From: Nitrospira sp.
GTDB lineage: Bacteria; Nitrospirota; Nitrospiria; Nitrospirales; Nitrospiraceae
Direction of reading: 5' to 3'
DNA: 64,000 bases
Assembly (NCBI GenBank): GCA_022226935.1
Contig: CP092081.1
Location: forward strand, 1,932,416 to 1,996,415
Positions within the stretch are counted from its first letter, which is position 1. Each line of letters begins with the position of its first letter. Position numbers and translations under genes: made by a program. The notes beneath the pieces are model-generated. The model worked only from the letters and a program-made list of their open reading frames with translations. It ran no database searches and was not told the DNA's origin. Positions 48,233 to 62,104 of this stretch are shown here, in pieces.

Positions 48233-48458
48233 CGAGGGCCCTTTCGCGCGGCGTTCCCTCCATCACTCTGTCTCGCGTTCCTGCCTGTATGTTCGTGTCT
48301 GGCTCGTCCTTTTTGCCCTACCACTGCGTTGCACAAAAGAATGGCGTGAGTCGCACCGGGCTGGTGGCTCGGCGCTTCAATTGACCCCGCGACAGCCGGT
48401 TGTGTATAAAATGGTCTGCTTGGTCGGAAGGCTGATTTTTTTTCGGGAGGCGTTCATC

Positions 48459-49562
48459 ATGGCGGGACGGGAATTTCACGACGGAGCCAAGGATGGCTTG
48501 GAGGCTTTGGAGCCTCTGGATCCCGAGAAGATTCATTCTTTTTCGGAATTGCTGGAAGCGATGCGGAAGACCGCGTTCGGCGGCCGTCGCCTGGGCGAGG
48601 CCTACGAAACGCTTGCCGCGATGATCGAGGATCCTGACTGCAAAGTCGTGTTGACGCTGTCGGGCGCCATGACGATTGCCAAAATGGGCAAGATCATCAG
48701 CACCATGATCGACCGCGGCATGGTGCAAGCGATTGTCTCGACCGGCGCACTGGTGGCGCACGGCTTGAGCGAATCGGTGGGCAAGCTGCACTACCGGCAT
48801 GAACCGTCCCATACCGATGAGGAGCTGTTTCAAAAGGGCTACAATCGCGTCTATGACACGCTCGAGATGGAGTCGAATCTGAACTATGTCGAGCATGTGG
48901 TGTCGCAGACCATGAAACGCATCAATGTCGATCAGCCCCTCTCGTCAAATTTTCTGACCCGCGAATTGGGCAAGACGCTGGCCGAAGAGTTTGAAGGCCC
49001 CGGCATTCTCAAGAGCGCCTATCTCAAGAACGTGCCGGTCTATATTCCCGCGTTTACCGACTCTGAAATGGGCTTGGACGTGGGGACTTGGGCCATGGGC
49101 AAGCAGATCGATTTTACCCGCAGTCAGATCAAAGAAGGCGGGGATGTGGCGGTGTTACGCGCGCTGCATCAGACCTGTCCCGTGTTCAATCCCTATCTCG
49201 ACCTCAATCATTATGCAGAAGAAGTCCTGGGCTCCACGCGGCTCGGGATTTTCACGATCGGCGGCGGGGTGCCTCGCAATTGGGCGCAGCAAGTGGCTCC
49301 CTATATTGAAATCAGCAATACGCGTCTCGGGCTCAACGTGCAACCCCCGCGCTTCCACTATGGCGTGCGGATCTGCCCTGAACCGGACTATTGGGGCGGG
49401 CTGAGCGGGTGCACCTATCAAGAAGGCATCTCCTGGGGCAAATTCGTCCCGCCGGCCGAGGGGGGCCGTTTTGCCGAAGTCCTCAGTGACGCGACGCTGG
49501 TGTGGCCGCTGCTGATGGTGGGATTATTGGAACGGTGCGCCGTGAAGAGTGTCTCCGCATGA
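48459..49562 (+). CDS. Deoxyhypusine-synthase-family protein
   Basis: The 367-residue protein has the family NAD-dependent aminobutyl-transfer fold (SGAMTIAKMGKIISTMIDRGMVQAIVSTGALVAHGL, PVYIPAFTDSEMGLD) and the catalytic Lys in EGISWGKFVPP (residue 328). Bacteria lack eIF5A hypusination, and such enzymes are thought to make polyamines such as homospermidine or spermidine from putrescine. Agmatinase and arginine decarboxylase lie 3-5 kb downstream, which fits a polyamine role. GGGAGG precedes ATG 48459. The DsbA-like gene overlaps its stop by 4 nt. Confidence 0.85.
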   Translation: MAGREFHDGAKDGLEALEPLDPEKIHSFSELLEAMRKTAFGGRRLGEAYETLAAMIEDPDCKVVLTLSGAMTIAKMGKIISTMIDRGMVQAIVSTGALVAHGLSESVGKLHYRHEPSHTDEELFQKGYNRVYDTLEMESNLNYVEHVVSQTMKRINVDQPLSSNFLTRELGKTLAEEFEGPGILKSAYLKNVPVYIPAFTDSEMGLDVGTWAMGKQIDFTRSQIKEGGDVAVLRALHQTCPVFNPYLDLNHYAEEVLGSTRLGIFTIGGGVPRNWAQQVAPYIEISNTRLGLNVQPPRFHYGVRICPEPDYWGGLSGCTYQEGISWGKFVPPAEGGRFAEVLSDATLVWPLLMVGLLERCAVKSVSA

Positions 49563-50212
49563 CCCCCGCGGCTGGTTGGAGGCTGAGGGTCGGGGTGCCA
49601 TTCCTGCTGCTCATGCTCACCACGGCCTTGGCCATGGCGGCAAGCTCCCCGACGATCGACAACCGTATGCGGGGGAAGGCGGATGCGCCGATCACCCTGA
49701 TCGAGTACTCGGACTTCACCTGCGGCTACTGTTTGAAATTTTTCAAGGAAACCTGGCCGAAGATTCACGCGCGCTACGTCGAGACGGGGAAGGTGCGGTT
49801 TCTCTACAAGGATTATCCCCGCGCCGACCAGGGCCCCGGTGTGACGGCCGCTCTTGCCGCCCGTTGCGCCGGAGATCAGGGCACCTACTGGCCGATGCAT
49901 GACCGCCTCTTTTCCGCCGACGGCCGGCTGGATGTGGATAGTTATTCCCAGTATGCCAAAGCCATCGGGCTTGACCAATCGAAGTTTCGGCAATGTCTGC
50001 GCGATGCCCCACATATGAAGGCGATTTTTCAAGATCGCGACGAGGCCAATGCGTGGGGATTTCACGGCACGCCCGGCTTCATTCTGATGCGGACGGCGCA
50101 GCAGCCGACGGCCCAGAATCCGGCGCTTGCGATTCCGGGGGCGTTCCCCTTTGCCGCGTTTGAGGAAGAAATCGAGAAACTCCTCGCGGCCTCGGGAGAG
50201 AAAGCGAAGTAA
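49559..50212 (+). CDS. DsbA-like periplasmic thiol protein
   Basis: This 217-residue protein has a signal peptide (FLLLMLTTALAMAASS) and a DsbA/Com1-type fold: IEYSDFTCGYCLKFFKETWPKI with CGYC, a helical insert (ADQGPGVTAALAARCAGDQGTYWPMHDRLF) and FHGTPGFILM at the cis-Pro. It should oxidise or isomerise thiols in the periplasm. The ATG overlaps the deoxyhypusine-synthase-like stop in ATGA, so translation is coupled, although no functional link is evident. A second Cys (AARCAG) and QCLRDAP are present. Confidence 0.85.
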   Translation: MTPAAGWRLRVGVPFLLLMLTTALAMAASSPTIDNRMRGKADAPITLIEYSDFTCGYCLKFFKETWPKIHARYVETGKVRFLYKDYPRADQGPGVTAALAARCAGDQGTYWPMHDRLFSADGRLDVDSYSQYAKAIGLDQSKFRQCLRDAPHMKAIFQDRDEANAWGFHGTPGFILMRTAQQPTAQNPALAIPGAFPFAAFEEEIEKLLAASGEKAK

Positions 50213-50293
50213 GGTCACTCATGCGGGTGAGAGACAGTGGGATGAATATCGTGACGAGCATCATCGTCTAGCCAGGAAAGAGGAAACTGCACT

Positions 50294-50572
50294 ATGGGGT
50301 CTAAACAAGCCTTTTGGACTGTGGCTGCAAAGGATGGAGAGCCGGATCTGTGGGTGTGCATGTCCTGTTTGAGCGAGGCATTTTGCCGCAAGGTGCCCAT
50401 GCCCGCTTGTCCGACCTGTCACGGGGTCTCGACCTATGAAGCGTTTACCCTGGCGGCGGTGCAGGATTGGGGAACCGACGAGTTGATCGCCAAAGCCGTG
50501 GCTGCTCAGCAGGAAGGGGCGGCCCTCAGCGCAGCGGCTTCCGCGACGCCTCCTGTGGAGTCCGTGCAGTAG
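50294..50572 (+). CDS. Small zinc-ribbon protein
   Basis: This 92-residue protein has CMSC and CPTC (LWVCMSCLSEAFCRKVPMPACPTCHGVSTYEAF), a likely zinc site, and an Ala/Glu-rich tail. AAGAGGAAA precedes the ATG by a normal gap. It sits between the DsbA-like and aldehyde dehydrogenase genes on the same strand. Function unknown. Confidence 0.65.
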   Translation: MGSKQAFWTVAAKDGEPDLWVCMSCLSEAFCRKVPMPACPTCHGVSTYEAFTLAAVQDWGTDELIAKAVAAQQEGAALSAAASATPPVESVQ

Positions 50573-50600
50573 CGAGTGTTCCTCTCCGGGAGTTGGTCCG

Positions 50601-52031
50601 TTGGAAAATGGACGTCCATTTCTAGTCGGCGGCCGCTGGTCTCAATCTACGACGGTCGCCCCTGTACGAAATCCCTACACAGGCGAGACGATTGCCCATG
50701 TCTGCCAGGCGAGTCCGGCGGATGCGGAAGCGGCCATGCAGTCTTCGGTCGAAGGCGCGGCGGCGATGCGTCGCTTATCGGGTTATGCGCGATCGACGCT
50801 GTTGGCCAACGCGGCTCAGGCTCTGCAGGCGCGGCAGGAAGAATTCGCGCGTACGATGACGGTGGAGGCCGGTAAACCGCTGACGGATGCCCGTCGTGAA
50901 GTCGGCCGTGCCATTCAAACGCTCTCGATTGCCGGGGAAGAAGCCAAACGAATCGGCGGCGAGGTGGTGCCGCTGGATTGGTCGCCCGGCATGGAGTCTT
51001 ATTGGGGCGTGACGCGGCGGTTTCCCATCGGGCCGATCCTCGGGATTACCCCCTTCAACTTTCCGCTCAATCTCGTCGTGCACAAGGTGGCGCCGGCGTT
51101 GGCAGCGGGCAACTCGATTTTGATCAAGCCGGCTCCCCAGACACCGCTGACGGCGCTGCTGCTTGGCGATCTGCTGCTCAAGGCCGGGGTGCCGCCGGGA
51201 GGACTCAATATTCTGCCCTGTGACAATACCGTCGCTGAACAATTGGTCGTGGATTCTCGATTCAAGCTCCTGAGTTTCACCGGGAGTGCATCAGTCGGGT
51301 GGATGTTGAAAGCCAAGTGCGGCAAGAAAAAAGTCGTGCTTGAATTGGGCGGCAATGCCGCGGTGATCATCGAGCCGGATGCGGATGTGGAGTATGCGGC
51401 CCAGCGCTGCGTCACGGGCGGGTTCACGTATGCGGGGCAGACTTGTATCTCCGTTCAGCGGATTTTTGTGCATGAATCCATCGCCGAGTCGTTTACCGAA
51501 CAGCTCATGACCAAGGTGCGAGGGTTGGCGACGGGGGACCCGGGCGACGAGCGTACCGTCGTTGGGCCCTTGATCGACGCCGGTGCCGCGCAGCGCATCG
51601 AGGGCTGGATCGGCGAAGCGGTGGCTCAAGGCGCGTGTCTGCTGTCGGGCGGGTCGCGTGAAGGATCGGTGGTAAGGCCCACGGTCTTGTCTCAGGTGAC
51701 CGCCGCGATGAACGTCTCTTGCCGCGAAGTGTTCGGCCCGCTGGTGACGCTCACGCCCTATCGTGAGTTCGAGGCGGCATTGAACGCCGTCAATGAATCG
51801 GACTATGGGTTGCAAGCGGGGATCTTCACCAATAATATCGGGCGCATTTTTCAGGCCTTCGAGCAGTTGGAGGTCGGCGGAGTGCTGGCGAATGAAATTC
51901 CCACCTTCCGTGCGGACCACATGCCCTATGGCGGCATCAAGGATTCCGGCATCGGGCGCGAAGGCCTGCGGTATGCGATCGAGGATATGACCGAGCCGAA
52001 GTTGCTGGTCGTGAATCTCCGGCGCCCGTGA
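50601..52031 (+). CDS. Aldehyde dehydrogenase family protein
   Basis: The 476-residue NAD(P)-dependent dehydrogenase has the cofactor fold GITPFNFPLNLVVHKVAPALAAGNSILIKP and FTGSASVGWML, the general-base Glu in LELGGNAAVI, the catalytic Cys in YAGQTCISVQR and EVFGPLVTL. It resembles succinate-semialdehyde, lactaldehyde or GapN-like enzymes; the substrate is not clear. It uses TTG 50601 behind CGGGAG. Being in a polyamine-gene region, it could oxidise an aminoaldehyde such as 4-aminobutanal (inference). Confidence 0.88.
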   Translation: MENGRPFLVGGRWSQSTTVAPVRNPYTGETIAHVCQASPADAEAAMQSSVEGAAAMRRLSGYARSTLLANAAQALQARQEEFARTMTVEAGKPLTDARREVGRAIQTLSIAGEEAKRIGGEVVPLDWSPGMESYWGVTRRFPIGPILGITPFNFPLNLVVHKVAPALAAGNSILIKPAPQTPLTALLLGDLLLKAGVPPGGLNILPCDNTVAEQLVVDSRFKLLSFTGSASVGWMLKAKCGKKKVVLELGGNAAVIIEPDADVEYAAQRCVTGGFTYAGQTCISVQRIFVHESIAESFTEQLMTKVRGLATGDPGDERTVVGPLIDAGAAQRIEGWIGEAVAQGACLLSGGSREGSVVRPTVLSQVTAAMNVSCREVFGPLVTLTPYREFEAALNAVNESDYGLQAGIFTNNIGRIFQAFEQLEVGGVLANEIPTFRADHMPYGGIKDSGIGREGLRYAIEDMTEPKLLVVNLRRP

Positions 52032-52206
52032 AAGAAAGCGCCGGCAGGGCAAAAAAACCCCTCTCGCCGTATTGCGGATGCGGAACAAACTTGATACAAC
52101 TTCCGCGCGTGTCGCCGCATGATCACACGCGCGGCCCAGGCCTTGTGACAATTCATCGAACACTCAGGCGGAGTGCGTTCGACGCGGGATGAAGAGGGAG
52201 ACCTAC

Positions 52207-52782
52207 ATGGTACCAACACACATGTTTTTGACGAGGGGCGTCGGAGTGCACAAGGAAAAGTTGGCTGCGTTCGAGCAGGCCTTGCGTAGTGCCGGCGTGG
52301 CCTATTGCAACCTCGTCAGCGTCTCGTCCATCCTGCCCCCCAATTGCAAAATCCTTCCGCGCAAACGCGGGGAGAAATTGTTGAATCCAGGGGAAATCAC
52401 CTTTTGCGTCATGGCCCGATCAGAGACCAACGAACGCAACCGGCTCATCTCTGCCTCCATCGGCTTGGCGATTCCAACCGATCGTGATACCTACGGCTAT
52501 CTCTCCGAGCACCATGCCTATGGTGAAACGGACGAAGAATCCGGCGAATACACGGAAGACCTGGCGGCCCAGATGCTCGCCACCACCCAGGGGATCGAGT
52601 TCGATCCCGATGTGGCCTGGAAGGAACGCGAGCAGGTCTTCAAGATGGGCGGAAAAATCGTTCGCACGCTCAACATCACACAATCCGCAGTGGGGCGGCC
52701 GAACCGTTGGACCTGCGTAATTGCCTTGGCGGTGTTCATCCCCACGGAAAACATTCCCAAGAGTCTGCGAAACAAGGCGTAG
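52207..52782 (+). CDS. Pyruvoyl-dependent arginine decarboxylase
   Basis: The 191-residue proenzyme matches PvlArg[45 protein letters not shown]. It cleaves itself, here most likely between S40 and S41, to make the pyruvoyl group, then decarboxylates arginine to agmatine. I start it at ATG 52207 with AGAGGGA upstream; ATG 52189 is also in frame. It lies 8 nt before the agmatinase gene, so the two form the arginine to agmatine to putrescine route. Confidence 0.93.
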
Positions 52783-52790
52783 CAGCGGCG

Positions 52791-53723
52791 ATGGCGCTTC
52801 CGTCCGGGTGGCTTGGACAAGCCGACAATTTTCTCGGGATCGAGGAGCCCTGGTGCCATCCCGATCAGGCGGGAGTCTACGTACTGCCCGCTCCCTACGA
52901 GCACACCTCGAGTTATATCCTCGGATCCGACCGCGGGCCGTCCGCCATCATCGAAGCGTCCCAGCAGGTTGAGTTGTACGACGAAACGTTGCGGTACGAG
53001 CCGTATCGCGAATGGGGCGGCGTCGCCACGGCCAACACGCTGGACTTGGCCGGGCGCGTGGACGGGCAGGCCGTGCAAGCCATTCAGGATTTTGTGCAGC
53101 CGCATGTCGGGCGAGGCAAGTTCTTGGTGACCTTGACCGGAGAGCACACCGGCGCGTTAGGCGCCATCCGTGCCCATGCCCAACAGTATCCGGGCATGTG
53201 TGTCGTGCAAATCGATGCCCATGGCGACCTCCGACAGGCGTACCAGGACAATCCCTATAGTCACGCCAGCGTCATGGCCCGCGTGGTGCAAGATGGACTG
53301 TCGCTGGTGCAGGTCGGTATCCGGTCGATCAGCCCCGAAGAAATCGATCTCATCGACAAGACGCCGCGGATCAAGACCTTTTTTGCGGCGTCGATTTTGG
53401 ATCCTTCCGGCCCCTATGAAGGACGGGCCATTCGCTGGGTTCCTGAAGTGCTGGCTTCCTGCACCGGGCCGGTATACCTCACCTTCGATTGTGACGGGCT
53501 GGATGCGTCGCTTGTTCCGGCCTTGGGAACACCGGAACCGGGTGGGTTGGGCTGGTACGATACCCTCGCGCTCGTCACGGCACTGGCCAGCGGGCCGGGT
53601 ATCGTCGGTATGGACATCAGCGAGATTGCGCCCATTGAAGGATTCGTCGCGCCTCAGTTCAGCATTGCTCGCTTGATTTACCGCATGCTGGGGCGGATTC
53701 GAGCGGGCCGCCAGGTTCACTAA
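52791..53723 (+). CDS. speB: Agmatinase
   Basis: This 310-residue ureohydrolase hydrolyses agmatine to putrescine and urea at a di-manganese site. Metal motifs are LTGEHTGALG (H119, the family GGDHS variant), QIDAHGDLR (D142, H144, D146) and TFDCDGLDAS. It is 8 nt downstream of the arginine decarboxylase and is probably co-translated. In several bacteria this pair replaces ornithine decarboxylase. The first-motif variant (EHT for DHS) is unusual but keeps the His. Confidence 0.92.
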   Translation: MALPSGWLGQADNFLGIEEPWCHPDQAGVYVLPAPYEHTSSYILGSDRGPSAIIEASQQVELYDETLRYEPYREWGGVATANTLDLAGRVDGQAVQAIQDFVQPHVGRGKFLVTLTGEHTGALGAIRAHAQQYPGMCVVQIDAHGDLRQAYQDNPYSHASVMARVVQDGLSLVQVGIRSISPEEIDLIDKTPRIKTFFAASILDPSGPYEGRAIRWVPEVLASCTGPVYLTFDCDGLDASLVPALGTPEPGGLGWYDTLALVTALASGPGIVGMDISEIAPIEGFVAPQFSIARLIYRMLGRIRAGRQVH

Positions 53724-54551: not shown

Positions 54552-55364
54552 CTACTCAGCGCGGAGCGCCGTGTTGGACCGGTTACCAGGCAAGTTCAAT
54601 GAGTCGGGACGGACGGATTCTTCAGATCTGGAGGCGGGCAGTGGCGCTCTGGTGGTTCGACTGAGGAACAGATTCAACAATGCGATGAAAAAACTCCCTC
54701 CCACGACCCAATAGCTCGTTGAGCGGATGGTTTTGGTGCCTTCGTCGCGCATGTCCTTGGCGACCTCCGCCACGGTCTCCAGCAGACGGTCCAAGGCCAG
54801 ACTCACCTGCATCACCTTCGGCCCGCCGTTGTCGGCTGCATGAATTTCCGCTTTGCGCCGGAGTTCCGCCGCCTCTTTCGGCGATCCCGCTTTCCATTCC
54901 TGAGCCACGAGATCGATCGTTTTGCTGGCGACATGGAAGTATTGGTCGAGGCTTTCACGCACGGCCTGGATGTCTTTTTCTTCGCTGCGTCCGCTACGGG
55001 ACACACGCAGGCCTGCGGCGGCATACCGATCCACCGCATGTTGAATGCGCGCTCGTTGCGCCGGCAGGGATTCGGTAATGCGCTCGAAGACCGCCTGATT
55101 TTCTGCTTCCAACGACCGGATGATGGTGTTGCGATACCGGATGACGTCGGCAGAAATATGGGCGAGGTCGGCTGCTCCCAGCGTGTACTCGGTATACATG
55201 ACGCGCAGGTCTTGATCGATACGACTGAGGGCCTGCCCGCTGATCCATCCCAGTCCCGCGATCAGGATGCTGATGAGCAATTGGTTCGTGCCGGGAAAGG
55301 ACAATTTGAAACGCGAGGCAAACGACACAGCTGTCCCTTTCGTCGGGCCGAGGGTGGAGTGCAT
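54552..55364 (-). CDS. 4HB sensor-like membrane protein without an output domain
   Basis: This 270-residue protein has two membrane helices (LLISILIAGLGWISG near 30-45 and YWVVGGSFFIALLNLF near 225) around a four-helix-bundle domain like that of chemoreceptors (YTEYTLGAADLAHISADVIRYRNTIIRSLE..., DIQAVRESLDQYFHVASKTIDLVAQEW). Only 30 residues follow the second helix, so there is no HAMP or signalling domain. It may sense and pass a signal to a partner, or be a remnant. It lies upstream of nothing obvious on its strand; the pseudo-ABC gene is 80 nt away and transcribed towards it. Confidence 0.6.
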   Translation of the reverse strand: MHSTLGPTKGTAVSFASRFKLSFPGTNQLLISILIAGLGWISGQALSRIDQDLRVMYTEYTLGAADLAHISADVIRYRNTIIRSLEAENQAVFERITESLPAQRARIQHAVDRYAAAGLRVSRSGRSEEKDIQAVRESLDQYFHVASKTIDLVAQEWKAGSPKEAAELRRKAEIHAADNGGPKVMQVSLALDRLLETVAEVAKDMRDEGTKTIRSTSYWVVGGSFFIALLNLFLSRTTRAPLPASRSEESVRPDSLNLPGNRSNTALRAE

Positions 55365-55443: not shown

Positions 55444-57120
55444 TCACTCGAGTATGACGCGTCGCTCGACCAGTTGACCGACTTCGGGATCATTGGAGAC
55501 GAATACGATGGACCAGGGTTCCTCTTTGGAGCAGAGCCTCCGCAGCAGCGTCAGTCGCAGGGTCGGGTCGATATTGTGGAGACTGCCGTTGAAAATCAAC
55601 AATTCCGGCCTAGTGACGATCATCCTGGCCAGAAGAATGCGAAGCACCTGGCTGCGGCTCAAATTCGCCCCGTTCCCGTGCACGACCGTTTCCAGTCCCA
55701 GGGGCAGCGCGTCGATTTCTTCCTCCAGCTCCACGAATCGCAGCGCCCAGCTCACATCGGCGAATTGAATCGACGGGCGCTGGAGCGTGACGTTTTCTTC
55801 CAAGGTTCCATCGAACAGGGTGGGGTGGGAATCGAGCATCAACCCCCGGCAGCGATTCACATAATTGAGTGACACGTCTCGCAGGTCGATATCGTTGTAA
55901 CGGATGACCCCGCTGGTGGGAGGATAGAGCCCGGCCAGGAGGAGCGCGAGCGACGTTTTGCTTTTGCTCGTTCCTGTGAGGACCGTGATCTTTTCGCCGG
56001 GCAGCACTTCCAGATTGAAATGATCGAACAGCATCGGTCCGTCCGGGCCGGCAAAGGACACGTCTTTGCACGTCAGGCGTACTCCCTGGAGCGTGGGATT
56101 CGGAAGCCAGGCGGCAATCGGCCCGGAGACCTCCTCTTTCGGCATCTCGAAGAGCTTGGAGAGCTCCTGCAGGGATGTGGCGACATAGATGGCGGCATAC
56201 ATGCGTCGAGCCACCATGTCGAGATTGAGCAGCAAGGTGCCGACAATGACCTCCGCCGCCACGAATTGGCCGAGCGTGATATCTCCCAGCGACAGCAACC
56301 ATCCGCCGAGTCCGATCATGCCGCTGTGGGCGAAGGCCTGAAAGATGACCGCGCTTTTATATTGGGCTCCGGTCAAGATATCGGATCGAGTCTTCCGCGC
56401 CTGGACATAGGCTTGCACCAGCGCATCGGTTTTTTTGAGCAACAGGGGCAGGCTGTCGGTGGATTTAAAATGAAGCCGGTTGATGCCGATGTCTTGCAGC
56501 CAGTGAAAGGTCCGGTAGTGGAGGCTCGAGACCCGTTGAGTAATGCGGAGTCCTCCGCGGCCAAAAAAGGTCAGCAGAAAGGCAAAACCGGTGATCAGGA
56601 AGACGTTATAGCCGAGGAAGTAAGGATGGTACATGACGAGGATCGCCATGCCGATCATGCCCGACACGGACACATTGACGAGGTCGACCAGCATCGCGAC
56701 CAGCGCGCGCGGCAACAGCTCCGCTTCGATGAAGGTGTTGGTATGTTGCGGAAGAAAGACGTTCTCCCGAAAGCGGGGCAGCGCTTCGGTAAAGGCGACA
56801 GCCAGCCTGGTATAGATCCGCTGAACCAGGATTTCCACCGCTCGCCCCTGCAAGACGCGGAACGCCCCCATCAACAGCAACGCGCCCAACATGATGGCCA
56901 CCAGCGTCACGATCATGATCGGTTGAATGGCGAAGGCGAAGGTGTTCACGAGCTCTTGCACGGTGAGGGGCACGATCAGCGCAAACGAGCCGATTACGAT
57001 CGCATAGGAAGCAATGATCGCCAGAATACGCCGCTCAAGTCCGACCAGGAGGTTGAGACGCGCAAGAATGGTCCATGCTGACGGTGTGGCGATGGTTGAT
57101 TCGGTGGCGTTGTGATTCAC
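55444..57120 (-). CDS. ABC exporter-like protein with a degenerate ATPase domain (A)
   Basis: The 558-residue protein has a type I exporter membrane domain (about 1-335; TM segments ILAIIASYAIVIGSFALIVPL, PIMIVTLVAIMLGALLL, VNVSVSGMIGMAILVMYHPYFLG) and an ABC fold from about 345. The key residues are changed. Walker A is TGTSKSKTS (382-390, Lys kept but all three glycines lost). The Q-loop is LDS (429-431), the signature LSRSQ (487-491), Walker B ELLIFNG (506-512, neither Asp nor Glu) and the switch SND in place of His (542-544). It is probably unable to hydrolyse ATP. There is no C39 peptidase domain. The start is GTG 57120. Confidence 0.85.
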   Translation of the reverse strand: MNHNATESTIATPSAWTILARLNLLVGLERRILAIIASYAIVIGSFALIVPLTVQELVNTFAFAIQPIMIVTLVAIMLGALLLMGAFRVLQGRAVEILVQRIYTRLAVAFTEALPRFRENVFLPQHTNTFIEAELLPRALVAMLVDLVNVSVSGMIGMAILVMYHPYFLGYNVFLITGFAFLLTFFGRGGLRITQRVSSLHYRTFHWLQDIGINRLHFKSTDSLPLLLKKTDALVQAYVQARKTRSDILTGAQYKSAVIFQAFAHSGMIGLGGWLLSLGDITLGQFVAAEVIVGTLLLNLDMVARRMYAAIYVATSLQELSKLFEMPKEEVSGPIAAWLPNPTLQGVRLTCKDVSFAGPDGPMLFDHFNLEVLPGEKITVLTGTSKSKTSLALLLAGLYPPTSGVIRYNDIDLRDVSLNYVNRCRGLMLDSHPTLFDGTLEENVTLQRPSIQFADVSWALRFVELEEEIDALPLGLETVVHGNGANLSRSQVLRILLARMIVTRPELLIFNGSLHNIDPTLRLTLLRRLCSKEEPWSIVFVSNDPEVGQLVERRVILE

Positions 57121-57260
57121 GCGAGGGCTCGTGTCGGCCGATGGTGGGGCGCAGTGTGGGCGAATGCCGGAGCGCTGTCAAGGACGGGGAACAAGGCCGG
57201 CGGGCGGGTGAGAGAAAAGCGAAGCCCTCTGCCCGCGGTCTGGTGACGGTGCGGCACGCG

Positions 57261-58928
57261 TTAGTTCAGCATGATCCGGCGATCGACATGCGGGGTCAGA
57301 TTGGGATCGTTCGAGACGAAGATCACCGACCAGGGTTCTTCCTTGCTGCACAGGCGGCGGAGAATCGTCTCGCGCATCGCGGGGTGCATATTGTGAAGAA
57401 TGCCTTCGAAAATGAGGAGCTGGGGGCGTCCCAGGATCGCTCGCGCCACCAGGATGCGCACGATGTGCGTAGGGGCGAAGATTTTACCCGCGGATCGCAC
57501 ATGCGTTTTCAAGCCCTGGGGGAGGGCATCGACTTCTTCTTCGAGTTCAGTGAAGCGCAGCGCCCATCGCACGTCGCTGTAAGGAATGTAGTCTCGTCCG
57601 AGGACGATGTTTTCTTCCAGCGTCCCCTCAAACAACGAAAGTTGTGAATCCAGGATGAATCCTCTAAAGCGATTGACGGAATCCAGATTGAGGTGGCGAA
57701 GATCGACGCCGTTGTAGCGGATGACGCCGGCAGTGGGTGATTCGAGCCCGCCGAGCACCCGGGCCAGCGCGGTTTTCGCCATTGCCGTATCCGCATAGAT
57801 GCCGATTTTTTCACCCGGCGTCACTTCCAGGTTGAAGTGCTCAAAGACCGGCGGGCCACCGGCGGGCGCAAAGGTCAGGTCTTTGCACGTGACTCGAATA
57901 CCGTGAACTGTCGGGTCGGGCAAGGGAATGGACAGCGTGGCGGCGTCCTGATCTTTGGGCAGGGAGAAGAGGAAGCTCAGTTCGGTCAAGGCGGTGAGGA
58001 AATAGTAGATATGCCCCATCCGCTTCACGACGCCGTCGAAGCTCGACAGAATGCCGCTCACCACGACTTCCGCGGCGACGAATTGGCCGAGCGTCAGCTG
58101 GCCGATTCCCAGGAGCCACCCCGCCGTCGCGATGAGACCGCTATGGACGATCGCTTGCCATCCGAGTGATCCGAGATACTGCCGGATGAGGATTCCGAAT
58201 CGGGTCCTGCGCACGCCGACATAGGTATCCAGGAGCTGGTCCGTCTTTTTGATCAGCAGCGCCTGACTGTCGGTGGATTTAAAATGGAGGAGGTTGTAGG
58301 CAATTTCCTGAAACCAGTGCAGGGTGTCGTATTTGGCATGGGACATATCCATGTCGGCCTTCAGGCCGCCGTGGCTCATGAGGAAAAACACGACATTGAA
58401 TCCGACCAGCAGGATCGCGTTAAACAGCAGGAAGTACGGGTGATAGAACACCAGGATCGTCATGCCGACCGCCCCGCCCACGATGACGTTGATCAGGTCG
58501 ACCAGGAGGACCGACACGGCCCGCTGCATGAGAATGGTTTCGACGAAGTAATTGGCGAATCGAGGCTTGAACCCCTGATAGCGCAAATGCGGCAGTTGTT
58601 GGGCCATGGCAATGGCCACCCGGGCAAAGATGCGCCGTTCCAGCACTTCCACCGCATAGTATTGGAGGGCCCGGAAGGCACCCACGAAGAGCAGGCCCGC
58701 CACCATGACCGCGGCCAGTGTGACAATGGTGATGGGCTGGAGCGCGAAGGCGAACGTGTTGACGAGTTCTTGAACCGTGAGAGGAACGATCAGCGAGAAA
58801 AGCCCGATGGCGATTGAATAGGAAACGATGAGACCGAGGATGCGCCGTTCGAGACGAAACAGGAGGCCCAGATGGCCGACGACCGTTTGGAACAGATTGC
58901 TCTGGTTGTCGGAATGATCCTGGGCCAT
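57261..58928 (-). CDS. ABC exporter-like protein with a degenerate ATPase domain (B)
   Basis: This 555-residue paralogue of the next gene has the same plan and opening (ILGLIVSYSIAIGLFSLIVPLTVQELVNTFAFALQP). Its ATPase residues are lost in parallel but differently: Walker A ADTAMAKTA (379-387), Q-loop LDS, signature region IFAPT (483-487), Walker B QLLIFEG (503-509) and switch SND (539-541). Shared end motifs (RRLCSKEEPWSV/IFVSNDP) indicate an old duplication with conserved non-catalytic surfaces. It probably forms a heterodimer with the other half. AGAGGTAGCAGG precedes the ATG. Confidence 0.85.
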   Translation of the reverse strand: MAQDHSDNQSNLFQTVVGHLGLLFRLERRILGLIVSYSIAIGLFSLIVPLTVQELVNTFAFALQPITIVTLAAVMVAGLLFVGAFRALQYYAVEVLERRIFARVAIAMAQQLPHLRYQGFKPRFANYFVETILMQRAVSVLLVDLINVIVGGAVGMTILVFYHPYFLLFNAILLVGFNVVFFLMSHGGLKADMDMSHAKYDTLHWFQEIAYNLLHFKSTDSQALLIKKTDQLLDTYVGVRRTRFGILIRQYLGSLGWQAIVHSGLIATAGWLLGIGQLTLGQFVAAEVVVSGILSSFDGVVKRMGHIYYFLTALTELSFLFSLPKDQDAATLSIPLPDPTVHGIRVTCKDLTFAPAGGPPVFEHFNLEVTPGEKIGIYADTAMAKTALARVLGGLESPTAGVIRYNGVDLRHLNLDSVNRFRGFILDSQLSLFEGTLEENIVLGRDYIPYSDVRWALRFTELEEEVDALPQGLKTHVRSAGKIFAPTHIVRILVARAILGRPQLLIFEGILHNMHPAMRETILRRLCSKEEPWSVIFVSNDPNLTPHVDRRIMLN

Positions 58929-59029
58929 CCTGCTACCTCTGCCGCGCCGTCTGGATGATGCCGTTGCGGCGACCTGTCTACGCAGGCCTGCACCAGCTAA
59001 AACCTATCAGAGCGCACCGCAAAATACTA

Positions 59030-60520
59030 CTATTTGGAGAAGCTCGCACCGACCCGGTAATTGACCGGTACGGCGGACGGCTGGCTCCGGGCCCAGGAGC
59101 CGGTGGCCCATTGATAGAGAGCCAGGGCTTTCTGGTAATCGGCCTTCGCTCGGACGAGTTGCATCTCCGAATCGACGGAATTCCGCTCGCGGAGGTTTAC
59201 GAAGAGCACACTCGTGGCGCCCAAGCTGAACCGAAAACGCTCGCCTTCCTCCAAGGTCTTGGCCATGCGAAGTGATTCCGCGGCCGCCGCCACCCGCTCC
59301 TTCGCCCGTTCAATGGCGGACACGGCATTGTCGACATCCACGACCACTTGCTGTTCCCGGTATTTCTGCACCAGCACCAGCCGATCGGCCTGCGCCTGGG
59401 CTTCCATCACTTCACCGCGGCTTCTGCGTTGCAGAATCGGAATGCGCAACTCCACGCCGAACCGATAGCCCAATCCCAACACAAATTTCTCCGGGGCCCT
59501 CGCCGGCGCCGCTTCCAGATCGAGACTGGGCAAGAGGTTGTTCTTGGCGAGTTCCAGATCGATATTGTTGACCTTGGCCTCGATATCCACCTCGCGAATC
59601 TCCGGGCGATCGCTTTTTGCTTGCCGCTTATCGGCCTTGACGATGTCTGCCGTCGGGGGAGCGGCAGGAGGGGGGAAGTCCGGCACGCGCTCGAGCTGCG
59701 GTGCTGTGGGCGTCTGGTTTTCCCAGAGGAACATCGACATTTTATATTGCTCCTGTTCCACAGCTCGCTGCGCGGCGATGGCGATTTCCCGGCGACGCTG
59801 CACCTCCTGCCCGGCCTCGACCACATCGAGCGGCGCCACGGCTCCGGCCTTCGCTCGGCCCTCCACTTGCCTCAACCGTTCCTCCGCAACGCCGAGGGCG
59901 CGACGTTGCACGTCCACAAACTTCGCGGCCGAGACCCAATCCCAGAACTGGCTTGCCGCAGCCAGAAAGAGATCCTGTCTCGTTTGCGAAATTTTGACCT
60001 CGGCGCGCGGATCGGCCAGTTCCGAACGCTGCAGTTCCGCATTCTCGGGATTGATCATGAGTCCTTTCAGCAGGGGCAGGAAGCCGCCGAGAATGACTTG
60101 CTGGTTGCCGTTTCCGAACGAGAGGTCCGGAATCTTCGCGTCGCCGATAGCCTGCCGAATACCTGCGCTCCCCCGGAATCCCCATGGAGTCCGCGCTTCG
60201 ACCAAGGTATCGTTAAAACCTACGCTTTGAGTTTTGGTGGTGCCCTTGTCGATAAAGCGCTCGATCTCGGTATCGTTGACTAGGATCGGTTCGAATGCGC
60301 CCAGCGCCTTGAGCATTTTCCCGCGGGCCGACACCTTTTCTGTCCCTGCCCCCTTTAGGAGGGGATGGGAGCGATCGATCCAGGCGTGAATCTCGTTCAA
60401 AGACAGGGGGATCGGCGGAAGTGCTTTTGATTTGCCCGCGTCTTCTGCTCTGGCGCCGCTGTCCGGCAGCCCCCAGAGCGCACAGGCGGCAATGATCAGG
60501 ATCCATGCATAGTTCTTCAT
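59030..60520 (-). CDS. TolC-family outer membrane efflux protein
   Basis: The 496-residue protein has a signal peptide (MKNYAWILIIAACALWGLPDSGARA) and two long coiled-coil repeats of the TolC type: QTRQDLFLAAASQFWDWVSAAKFVDVQRRALGVAEERLRQVEGRAKAGAVAPLDVVEAGQEVQRRREIA and AQADRLVLVQKYREQQVVVDVDNAVSAIERAKERVAAAAESL. It should form the trimeric outer-membrane and periplasmic duct for the adjacent HlyD-like protein. I start it at ATG 60520 behind AAAGGAG. It lies about 100 nt before the degenerate ABC gene. Confidence 0.85.
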   Translation of the reverse strand: MKNYAWILIIAACALWGLPDSGARAEDAGKSKALPPIPLSLNEIHAWIDRSHPLLKGAGTEKVSARGKMLKALGAFEPILVNDTEIERFIDKGTTKTQSVGFNDTLVEARTPWGFRGSAGIRQAIGDAKIPDLSFGNGNQQVILGGFLPLLKGLMINPENAELQRSELADPRAEVKISQTRQDLFLAAASQFWDWVSAAKFVDVQRRALGVAEERLRQVEGRAKAGAVAPLDVVEAGQEVQRRREIAIAAQRAVEQEQYKMSMFLWENQTPTAPQLERVPDFPPPAAPPTADIVKADKRQAKSDRPEIREVDIEAKVNNIDLELAKNNLLPSLDLEAAPARAPEKFVLGLGYRFGVELRIPILQRRSRGEVMEAQAQADRLVLVQKYREQQVVVDVDNAVSAIERAKERVAAAAESLRMAKTLEEGERFRFSLGATSVLFVNLRERNSVDSEMQLVRAKADYQKALALYQWATGSWARSQPSAVPVNYRVGASFSK

Positions 60521-60607
60521 GAAACGCACTCCTTTCTGAGGTCACCAGACTGAGATGAGCGCCGAAGGGTGTCGCTGCTCCGGCATGCGCCGGAGAGACG
60601 GGACCGG

Positions 60608-62104
60608 TTACTTGGCCCCGCGGCCGGCTTTCGGCAGGAGGGTATCGATCAGGCTTGGAGGCCGTTCCTGGTAGTCGGGCGGAAAGAGATTGAACCGGCG
60701 CCAGAGCTCATACCAAAGCGGGACACGATTGAGAATGACCCATCCCATGGCTTTGGTTCCCTGCCGGACATGTTCTTGCGGAGGCCAGGGGCGTTCTTCC
60801 AGATCGGGGACGACCCAGAAACGGAAGTTGCCTTTGCCGTCGTCGACCTGGTCGATGACCTTGATCACCCCGTTATACGTACCAGCCATCATCTCCGGCC
60901 AAGCCGGCAGCGGGATGGCGGGAATGCCATAGAAGAGAATCTTGACCTTTCGGCCCACGTTGAGCAACGGGGCGTCGATGCCGTCGGCCACCATTTCAAT
61001 CGCTCTGTCCGTGCTGTTGGGAGAAATTCTGACGAGTTTTTCGCCGGGCCGCACGGTTTCACCGGCGCCCGCCTGCGCCATCTTCACGACGGTGCCGTCG
61101 ATGGGCGAGAGAATCCGGCTGGCGACGCGTCGCTGATTGGCGTTGGACAGACGCAAAGAGACGTCCGCCACCTGATCGGCGGCACGCGCCGCTTCGCCGA
61201 TCGAGGCATCTCGCGCGGCTTCTGCATCAAGGAGTCGCTGAAGCACTTCTGCGCTGACCTGCTCGCGTCCGAAACTCAAGGCCTTCATGCCCTGTTCGGC
61301 GGCGGCCAGGTTGGCTTGTGCACCTTGCAAATCCGCCTTGCTGGCGATGGCGGCTTGAATCGTGAGTTCTAATTCGCGTTGGGAGACGAGGCCCTGTTGT
61401 GCCAGTTGTTGATGCCGTTCCACATTGAGCTCGGCTGTGGCTACGGCAATTTTGGAGGCTTCGATTTTTTGCCGGGCCTCGCGGACTTTGCTTTCAGCTT
61501 CGAGCACCCGCGCGCCGGCCGACGGAACCGCGGCCTTCACGAGGTTTTGCATTTCCTTGATGCGTTTGTCGAGCTGATCGGCACGACTCAAGGCGGCCTT
61601 CCGGGTATCTTCCAGCGCCTGCTTGCGTTGTTCGAGAAGGTTCAAAAGATCCGGGGCCATGAAGTTCGGATCGTAGTCGTCGAGTTCGAGAATCACGTCG
61701 CCCGCCTTGACCCGCACGCCTTCGAAGATGTGCCACTTTTTGATGCGTCCGGTAATCTGCGCCTCGATGTCTTGCGGGCGCTCAAAGGGAGTGTAAGAGG
61801 AGAGTTGGCCGGTGACCGTAATGGTTTGAGTCCAGGGGACGAAGGCCACGATCAGCATGAAGAAACCGACCAGAAGAATGGCCAACCGTGAAGAGAACCG
61901 AAGCCGCTCTGGGATTTGAACGGCTTCCCAGGACTGGAGCTTGGTCGACGTCGCTAAATCGTCGACCGCTATTTCATCCAAGCCTGTGCGCTGGGTGACG
62001 AGGGAACGGAATCGGGTTTTGAGCCCTTCACGGATACGCTGCACGTGACCCCTCCACGCACCGTCCACTGAAAGAGTGCGCAGGCGTATCATAGTGGAAG
62101 ACAA
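60608..62104 (-). CDS. HlyD-like membrane fusion protein
   Basis: This 498-residue adaptor has a 70-residue cytoplasmic start, one membrane helix (LAILLVGFFMLIVAFVPW, about 73-90), a lipoyl/barrel segment (ITVTGQLSSYTPFERPQDIEAQITGRIKKWHIFEGVRVKAGDVILEL), and a long coiled-coil hairpin of about 200 residues. The matching lipoyl half follows (VASRILSPIDGTVVKMAQAGAGETVRPGEKLVRISP). It ends with a Trp-rich tail (WVILNRVPLWYELWRRFNLFPPD). Such adaptors bridge an inner-membrane exporter and TolC. It heads the four-gene locus. Confidence 0.87.
   Translation of the reverse strand: MSSTMIRLRTLSVDGAWRGHVQRIREGLKTRFRSLVTQRTGLDEIAVDDLATSTKLQSWEAVQIPERLRFSSRLAILLVGFFMLIVAFVPWTQTITVTGQLSSYTPFERPQDIEAQITGRIKKWHIFEGVRVKAGDVILELDDYDPNFMAPDLLNLLEQRKQALEDTRKAALSRADQLDKRIKEMQNLVKAAVPSAGARVLEAESKVREARQKIEASKIAVATAELNVERHQQLAQQGLVSQRELELTIQAAIASKADLQGAQANLAAAEQGMKALSFGREQVSAEVLQRLLDAEAARDASIGEAARAADQVADVSLRLSNANQRRVASRILSPIDGTVVKMAQAGAGETVRPGEKLVRISPNSTDRAIEMVADGIDAPLLNVGRKVKILFYGIPAIPLPAWPEMMAGTYNGVIKVIDQVDDGKGNFRFWVVPDLEERPWPPQEHVRQGTKAMGWVILNRVPLWYELWRRFNLFPPDYQERPPSLIDTLLPKAGRGAK

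Follow-up and report, generated by a model that had tools for sequence, protein, structure and literature searches.

Exporter genes and the state of their ATPase motifs

The stretch analysed here (the window) is a 64,000-nucleotide piece of contig CP092081.1, from a Nitrospira genome of 4.23 Mb assembled as one contig. On its minus strand lies an operon of five genes in the order HlyD, TolC, exporter A, exporter B and 4HB_MCP, separated by gaps of 78, 101, 140 and 79 bp (Table 1). Exporters A and B are paralogues with 54% identity, each with the transmembrane domain (TMD) and nucleotide-binding domain (NBD) of an ATP-binding cassette (ABC) exporter, and both match Pfam ABC_tran above its cut-off; a third member of the family, C, stands alone elsewhere in the same genome (G000:C1:1323636) and is 45% identical to A. 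The adaptor gene matches PF13437 (HlyD_3) above cut-off, and TIGR01843 at 77 bits, under that model's cut-off of 208.65; the channel gene matches PF02321 (OEP) at 108.9 bits, and TIGR01844 under its cut-off. The preliminary description of this DNA had listed the four genes from HlyD to exporter B and quoted the motifs of the two exporters, and both the positions and the motifs are as it gave them; that they form an envelope-spanning system also agrees with the presence of HlyD- and TolC-type genes in the operon. It had overlooked the fifth co-directional gene, whose product consists of a four-helix-bundle sensory module between two hydrophobic segments, without an output domain, and which adjoins the locus in 23 loci examined. 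A scan for promoters and terminators gave a signal no higher than chance.

The motifs of A and B were placed by alignment with MsbA. All three Walker A glycines are gone in both proteins, and the Q-loop Gln is replaced by Ser in both (LDSQ in A, LDSH in B). The Walker A Lys and the Thr that follows it are retained in A and B, and every other catalytic element is gone. The proposal that both ATPase domains are dead is thus upheld by this alignment, and by losses that are common to the wider family (below). The loss of Walker A had been described without mention of the Lys and Thr, and because these are retained in both genes the sequence leaves room for nucleotide binding.

Table 1. Features of the pseudo-exporter operon, and gene stretches beside the NBD-less exporters (last row)
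Feature	Position	Strand	Remarks
HlyD-type periplasmic adaptor	60608..62104	-	498 amino acids (aa) as listed, true start possibly further downstream; Pfam HlyD_3
TolC-type outer membrane channel	59030..60529	-	499 aa; Pfam OEP
Pseudo-ABC exporter A	57261..58928	-	six-transmembrane exporter domain and catalytically dead NBD
A, intracellular coupling-helix segment	58278..58295	-	NLLHFK; kept where NBD present, decayed in NBD-less members
A, Walker A position	57768..57794	-	ADTAMAKTA; glycines gone, Lys present
A, signature position	57465..57479	-	FAPTH in place of LSGGQ
A, Walker B position	57402..57419	-	LLIFEG; Asp to Glu, catalytic Glu to Gly
A, H-loop position	57306..57320	-	FVSND; His to Asn
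Pseudo-ABC exporter B	55444..57120	-	paralogue of A, missing in many relatives
B, Walker A position	55951..55977	-	TGTSKSKTS; Lys present
B, signature position	55648..55662	-	LSRSQ
B, Walker B position	55585..55602	-	LLIFNG; Asp to Asn, catalytic Glu to Gly
B, H-loop position	55489..55503	-	FVSND; His to Asn
4HB_MCP protein, last operon gene	54552..55364	-	270 aa; PF12729, 42 bits
DabB, 455-aa protein and DabA	L083:997-7210, L085:5504-11731, L207:10518-16736		

A census of 158 distinct full-length homologues, with four exporters of the same genome as controls in the same alignment, gave the same picture throughout. The catalytic Walker B Glu is present in none of them (Gly in 154, Ser in two, gapped in two) and neither is the H-loop His (Asn in 116, Thr in 32), the SGGQ signature, or a Gly at the Walker A positions G1 and G2; the Q-loop Gln is kept in two. 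In 156 of the 158, His now stands in place of the D-loop Ser, as a newly fixed residue. The Walker A Lys is retained in 133 and the Walker B Asp in 117, so that the reported loss of Walker B is invariant as regards the catalytic Glu but not as regards the Asp, which is Glu in A. The motifs of the four controls are essentially canonical. Homologous loci with intact motifs had been named as the observation that would tell against dead ATPase domains, and there were none among the 158.

Ratios of nonsynonymous to synonymous substitution rates (dN/dS; Nei-Gojobori, within the genus) are 0.042 for A, in TMD and NBD alike, and 0.071 and 0.076 for the TMD and NBD of B, with values of 0.029, 0.045 and 0.054 for the HlyD, TolC and 4HB genes. 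The dead NBDs are under strong purifying selection, and are constrained as much as their own membrane domains. Because the catalytic losses are shared by 158 homologues and the NBDs have such low dN/dS values, the losses reflect neither chance nor decay, and the view that the genes are maintained stands. Members of the family very probably do not hydrolyse ATP at their own sites.

Distribution, paralogues and loss of the NBD

A member of the family is present in 95 of 118 Nitrospiraceae genomes, including all 29 of the same genus, and the HlyD-TolC-pseudoABC-4HB operon is core in Nitrospiraceae. Among named relatives, it is carried by the complete genomes of N. moscoviensis (NZ_CP011801) and Ca. 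Nitrospira defluvii (FP929003). In most loci examined it is flanked by purE/purK on one side and by rluB, agmatinase and arginine decarboxylase genes on the other. The number of exporter copies varies, and many genomes have only one; the A/B pair is therefore not essential, and the emphasis previously placed on a heterodimeric pair as the key unit does not hold, since B occurs in some genomes only. One operon variant has three tandem TolC genes with one pseudo-exporter and one HlyD gene (L056, L057, L071, L075, L091, L210 and L215). We noted an orphan HlyD gene (L206:7316-8605) at the syntenic position of a genome of 2.0 Mb, TolC and exporter having been lost. In the window itself the operon is adjoined (48381-53723) by deoxyhypusine-synthase-like, DsbA-like, aldehyde dehydrogenase, pyruvoyl arginine decarboxylase-like and agmatinase-like genes, named by reading their sequences and kept together in relatives, which may perhaps be a polyamine cluster.

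A phylum-wide exporter search and a search with a HlyD profile gave no match, at the thresholds used, outside two families of the order, referred to here as f1 and f2. A family-profile search of 80 phylum genomes without close members revealed no intermediate active relatives, only generic exporters scoring at most 125 bits, mainly in the C-terminal half, whereas family members score at least about 290 bits, a sharp gap. Outside the phylum the search covered the 80 top-ranking loci from a single scan, so distant members outside Nitrospirota may have been missed. A member with 67% identity lies on a contig labelled Armatimonadetes (L129), which is probably a mis-binned Nitrospirota contig. We found no description of the family in the literature, as covered by open-access papers.

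The second family of the order, f2, carries the same HlyD-TolC-exporter operon with NBDs that are more degenerate, even the Walker A Lys being gone. In three genomes of one f2 genus (L083, L085 and L207) the NBD is absent altogether, while HlyD, TolC and the TMD remain, although HlyD is interrupted in L207. The three proteins end at 337-346 aa, just past the TMD-NBD linker and hence at a domain boundary, and in L083 and L085 no frame contains a remnant of the NBD. They form one clade on the tree, and the deletion is one loss event; the tree is of a quick kind with long outgroup branches, which makes the placement of individual long rows, L042 for example, uncertain. The TMD has a dN/dS of 0.22-0.27 in the NBD-less genomes, compared with 0.27 in NBD-bearing congeners. 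The coupling-helix residues H215 and K217 are gone in all three NBD-less proteins, and the HFK segment, which the NBD-bearing f2 proteins possess, has decayed in these proteins alone. Sites that are invariant in NBD-bearing f2 proteins and altered in all three NBD-less ones cluster in the coupling helix (Fisher p = 0.0003). Confined as it is to members without an NBD, this decay is independent evidence that the deletion is real and that elsewhere the dead NBD is still docked. An ABC fold used without hydrolysis, as was suggested previously, is strengthened by the complete deletion of the domain in this sister lineage. Two features of the surroundings were recorded as well. A divergent LysR-type regulator gene adjoins most f2 loci and the three-TolC variant (L083:11857-12777, L085:207-1106 and L056:2074-2973, among others). 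Co-directional and directly 3' of the NBD-less exporter are genes for a NuoL-like DabB, a 455-aa membrane-type protein and DabA, of inorganic carbon accumulation, and DabA is also found near the locus in L087.

Another part of the family, the well-supported clade D (SH-aLRT 100), has loci without HlyD or TolC alongside. Of 12 such loci, each from a different genome, all 12 have the clade D gene directly upstream of genes for a membrane histidine kinase with a PAS domain and for a sigma-54 regulator of the NtrC family. In the kinase, some 30 residues separate two hydrophobic segments, after which come PAS, HisKA and HATPase domains, and there is no sizeable periplasmic domain. Short-loop kinases that rely on a membrane partner are known, as for BceS (PMC7828314), and clade D resembles BceAB-BceRS in having an ABC protein encoded together, in a single operon, with a regulator and a membrane histidine kinase of the short-loop type. 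However, BceAB is an active ATPase of a different fold, with a permease that has a large extracellular loop, whereas in clade D it is a dead type I exporter that accompanies the PAS kinase and the NtrC-type regulator. Near clade C genes a conserved protein of about 200 aa is encoded in at least 12 loci; this companion (L038:9498-10109 and homologues) has a signal-like start and no Pfam match.

Predicted structure and comparison with known systems

The AlphaFold2 model of A is a complete exporter half (pLDDT 82.3, pTM 0.68), whose closest structure in the PDB is the ATP-bound HlyB of the HlyB/D complex (8dck; TM-score 0.88, 18% identity), followed by PCAT1, TmrAB and PrtD. The model of an NBD-less protein is poorer (pLDDT 69), with weak PDB matches (TM-score about 0.5 at best) that say nothing beyond 'exporter-like'.

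What defines a tripartite ABC system is an energised pump in the inner membrane. The locus shares with type I secretion systems (T1SS; HlyB-HlyD-TolC and PrtD) an HlyD-type adaptor, a TolC-type channel and a predicted fold of six transmembrane segments plus NBD that is closest to HlyB, but the NBD is catalytically dead in every member and deleted in one lineage, and the NCBIfam T1SS ABC models are not reached (125 bits at best, against a cut-off of 693). As the energised ABC pump that defines a T1SS is missing, we do not file the locus as one, in spite of its plan and parts. No conserved substrate candidate was seen among the neighbouring genes, where no search for RTX or leader peptides was made.

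Heterodimeric exporters with one degenerate site, such as TM287/288 and TmrAB, are well known (PMC7756269). They too have a degenerate NBD in a full-length protein, and in some genomes the present family likewise occurs as a paralogous pair; here, however, both halves are dead in all two-copy genomes and single-copy operons are common. SbmA is a proton-driven derivative of an ABC membrane domain that has lost the NBD and the coupling helices (PMC13316013). The same description, an ABC-derived membrane domain without NBD or coupling helix, fits L083, L085 and L207 only, and it is only this NBD-less branch that approaches the definition of SLiPT (SbmA/BacA) transporters; unlike them, the genes here adjoin HlyD and TolC and the dead NBD is kept in most members. 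The SLiPT proteins have a glutamate ladder, and E54, E287 and D298 are conserved here, but the total of ionisable residues is not above that of controls and no clear ladder is seen. Finally, loci with SecA_DEAD, HlyD and M50 proteins and without an ABC exporter occur in some bacteria, including a member of the Nitrospirae (PMC4452313). They are alike in being HlyD-type loci without a working ABC ATPase, but they lack any ABC exporter and have the SecA_DEAD and M50 proteins instead; we considered whether the two are the same system and conclude that those loci are a different one.

A proposed non-hydrolysing exporter in an envelope conduit

With an engine that has no catalytic part left, and an engine domain that is gone in one sister lineage, the envelope tube of nitrite-oxidising Nitrospira and their close relatives must be held, gated or driven in some other way. 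The reading that we favour, to which we give about an even chance, is that an ancestral pseudo-exporter became the inner-membrane gate or platform of an HlyD-TolC conduit, with its pseudo-NBD in a docking or regulatory role, and that a paralogue was reused as a sensor. A and B would then belong to an ancient, lineage-specific pseudo-ABC family in which hydrolysis had already been lost when f1 and f2 diverged. Platform and gate of the main operon would both be provided by the ABC-type membrane domain, either as a homodimer or as an A/B dimer, and the opening of the conduit would not be powered by hydrolysis at the pseudo-exporter's own NBD. The pseudo-NBD would be a docked, non-catalytic regulatory or structural domain, which in Nitrospiraceae may still bind nucleotide. 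It would move the membrane domain via the retained coupling helix, probably on a cytoplasmic ligand or protein cue, and the 4HB module might serve as an input from the periplasm. Clade D would be a membrane co-sensor recruited by the PAS histidine kinase and NtrC-type regulator pair. The scaffold, gate or sensor previously suggested are all candidate roles, with the histidine-kinase operons favouring sensing or gating for clade D. Several points weigh against this reading. The Walker A Lys in 133 of 158 homologues fits residual nucleotide binding and is compatible with either very slow hydrolysis or none; the kinase gene neighbourhood is no proof of a sensory complex, and the main operon has no adjoining kinase; and HlyD and TolC may here dock on another inner-membrane protein.

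Energy could instead come from an ion gradient, with the ABC-type membrane domain feeding HlyD-TolC as a secondary, proton- or ion-driven transporter in the manner of SbmA/BacA. The joint loss of NBD and coupling helix in L083, L085 and L207 follows the SbmA precedent, and ionisable residues in the membrane segments (E54, D144, E287 and D/E298) are kept family-wide, also in the NBD-less forms, with the positions of E54 and E287 being hydrophobic or otherwise occupied in most active exporters. An excess of such residues, examined as a sign of proton coupling, was however absent, there being nine conserved ones compared with 8, 10 and 8 in three groups of canonical exporters from the same genomes; moreover, the NBD and coupling helix retained by most members would be superfluous in a secondary transporter. 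Since the count is not above controls, we consider this arrangement possible but rather improbable. We think it unlikely that a canonical ABC exporter encoded elsewhere supplies hydrolysis in a mixed dimer, as the single-dead-site heterodimers might suggest, because a composite site would need Walker A/B or signature residues of the dead half, all of which are lost, and because the candidates are few and not specific to the family. Among complete genomes that carry the family, the smallest (G006; 1.7 Mb, 98% complete) has just two other full type I exporters, OG1 and OG2, and these are housekeeping orthologues found in 11 of 11 and 10 of 11 genomes lacking the family, respectively; the outright deletion of the NBD in one lineage also argues against such a dimer. 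The partner ATPase raised in the preliminary description is weakened likewise, and a dedicated one was rejected, OG1 and OG2 being housekeeping genes, and is unlikely. The intact, MsbA-related OG1 does lie 10-26 kb from the locus in many genomes (G006, G051, G065, G024, G020, G001, G012, G021 and G102), but in others its distance reaches more than 1 Mb, and we read the proximity as old gene order.

That an ordinary ABC exporter hydrolyses ATP here with unorthodox residues would be in keeping with the retained Walker A Lys and, in the majority of homologues, Walker B Asp, yet the catalytic Glu, the His and the signature are gone in all members, the Lys too is gone in members of the sister family, and three proteins have no NBD; we regard this as very unlikely. 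Similarly little credit can be given to the idea that the complex is energised by a separate source, such as a SecA-like motor or a soluble ATPase, by analogy with the SecA_DEAD/HlyD/M50 loci, and we place it marginally lower, as no ATPase, SecA-like or M50 protein was recognised among the conserved neighbours, which were named by reading and not all by family search. Several homologues come from metagenome-assembled genomes, one of which (L023) has a copy with a stop, and the interrupted HlyD of L207 and the orphan HlyD of L206 could likewise be taken as signs of decaying pseudogenes or of sequencing or binning artefacts. Against this, dN/dS is 0.04-0.08, the family is carried by the two complete genomes, synteny is conserved and the NBD-less form is found in three independent assemblies; the selection test refutes this explanation, which we find hardly credible.

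We weigh at about an even chance the broader proposal of an order-wide HlyD-TolC conduit with a non-hydrolysing ABC exporter, either gated or sensory or else ion-driven, together with an evolutionary series and a co-sensor paralogue. The series would lead from an active ancestor, whose existence we infer, to a dead NBD and then to an NBD-free membrane domain, and would still be partly preserved. The NBD-less lineage may parallel, independently, the way in which SbmA-type transporters arose, and the natural variants with a dead NBD or with none are useful for probing non-hydrolytic roles of the NBD. For annotation the family calls for caution, as A and B would be labelled ATPases from their above-cut-off matches to Pfam ABC_tran. 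In ecologically central nitrifiers, a core and strongly conserved operon keeps a tripartite architecture although its engine is off, and in one lineage the engine has been given up altogether.

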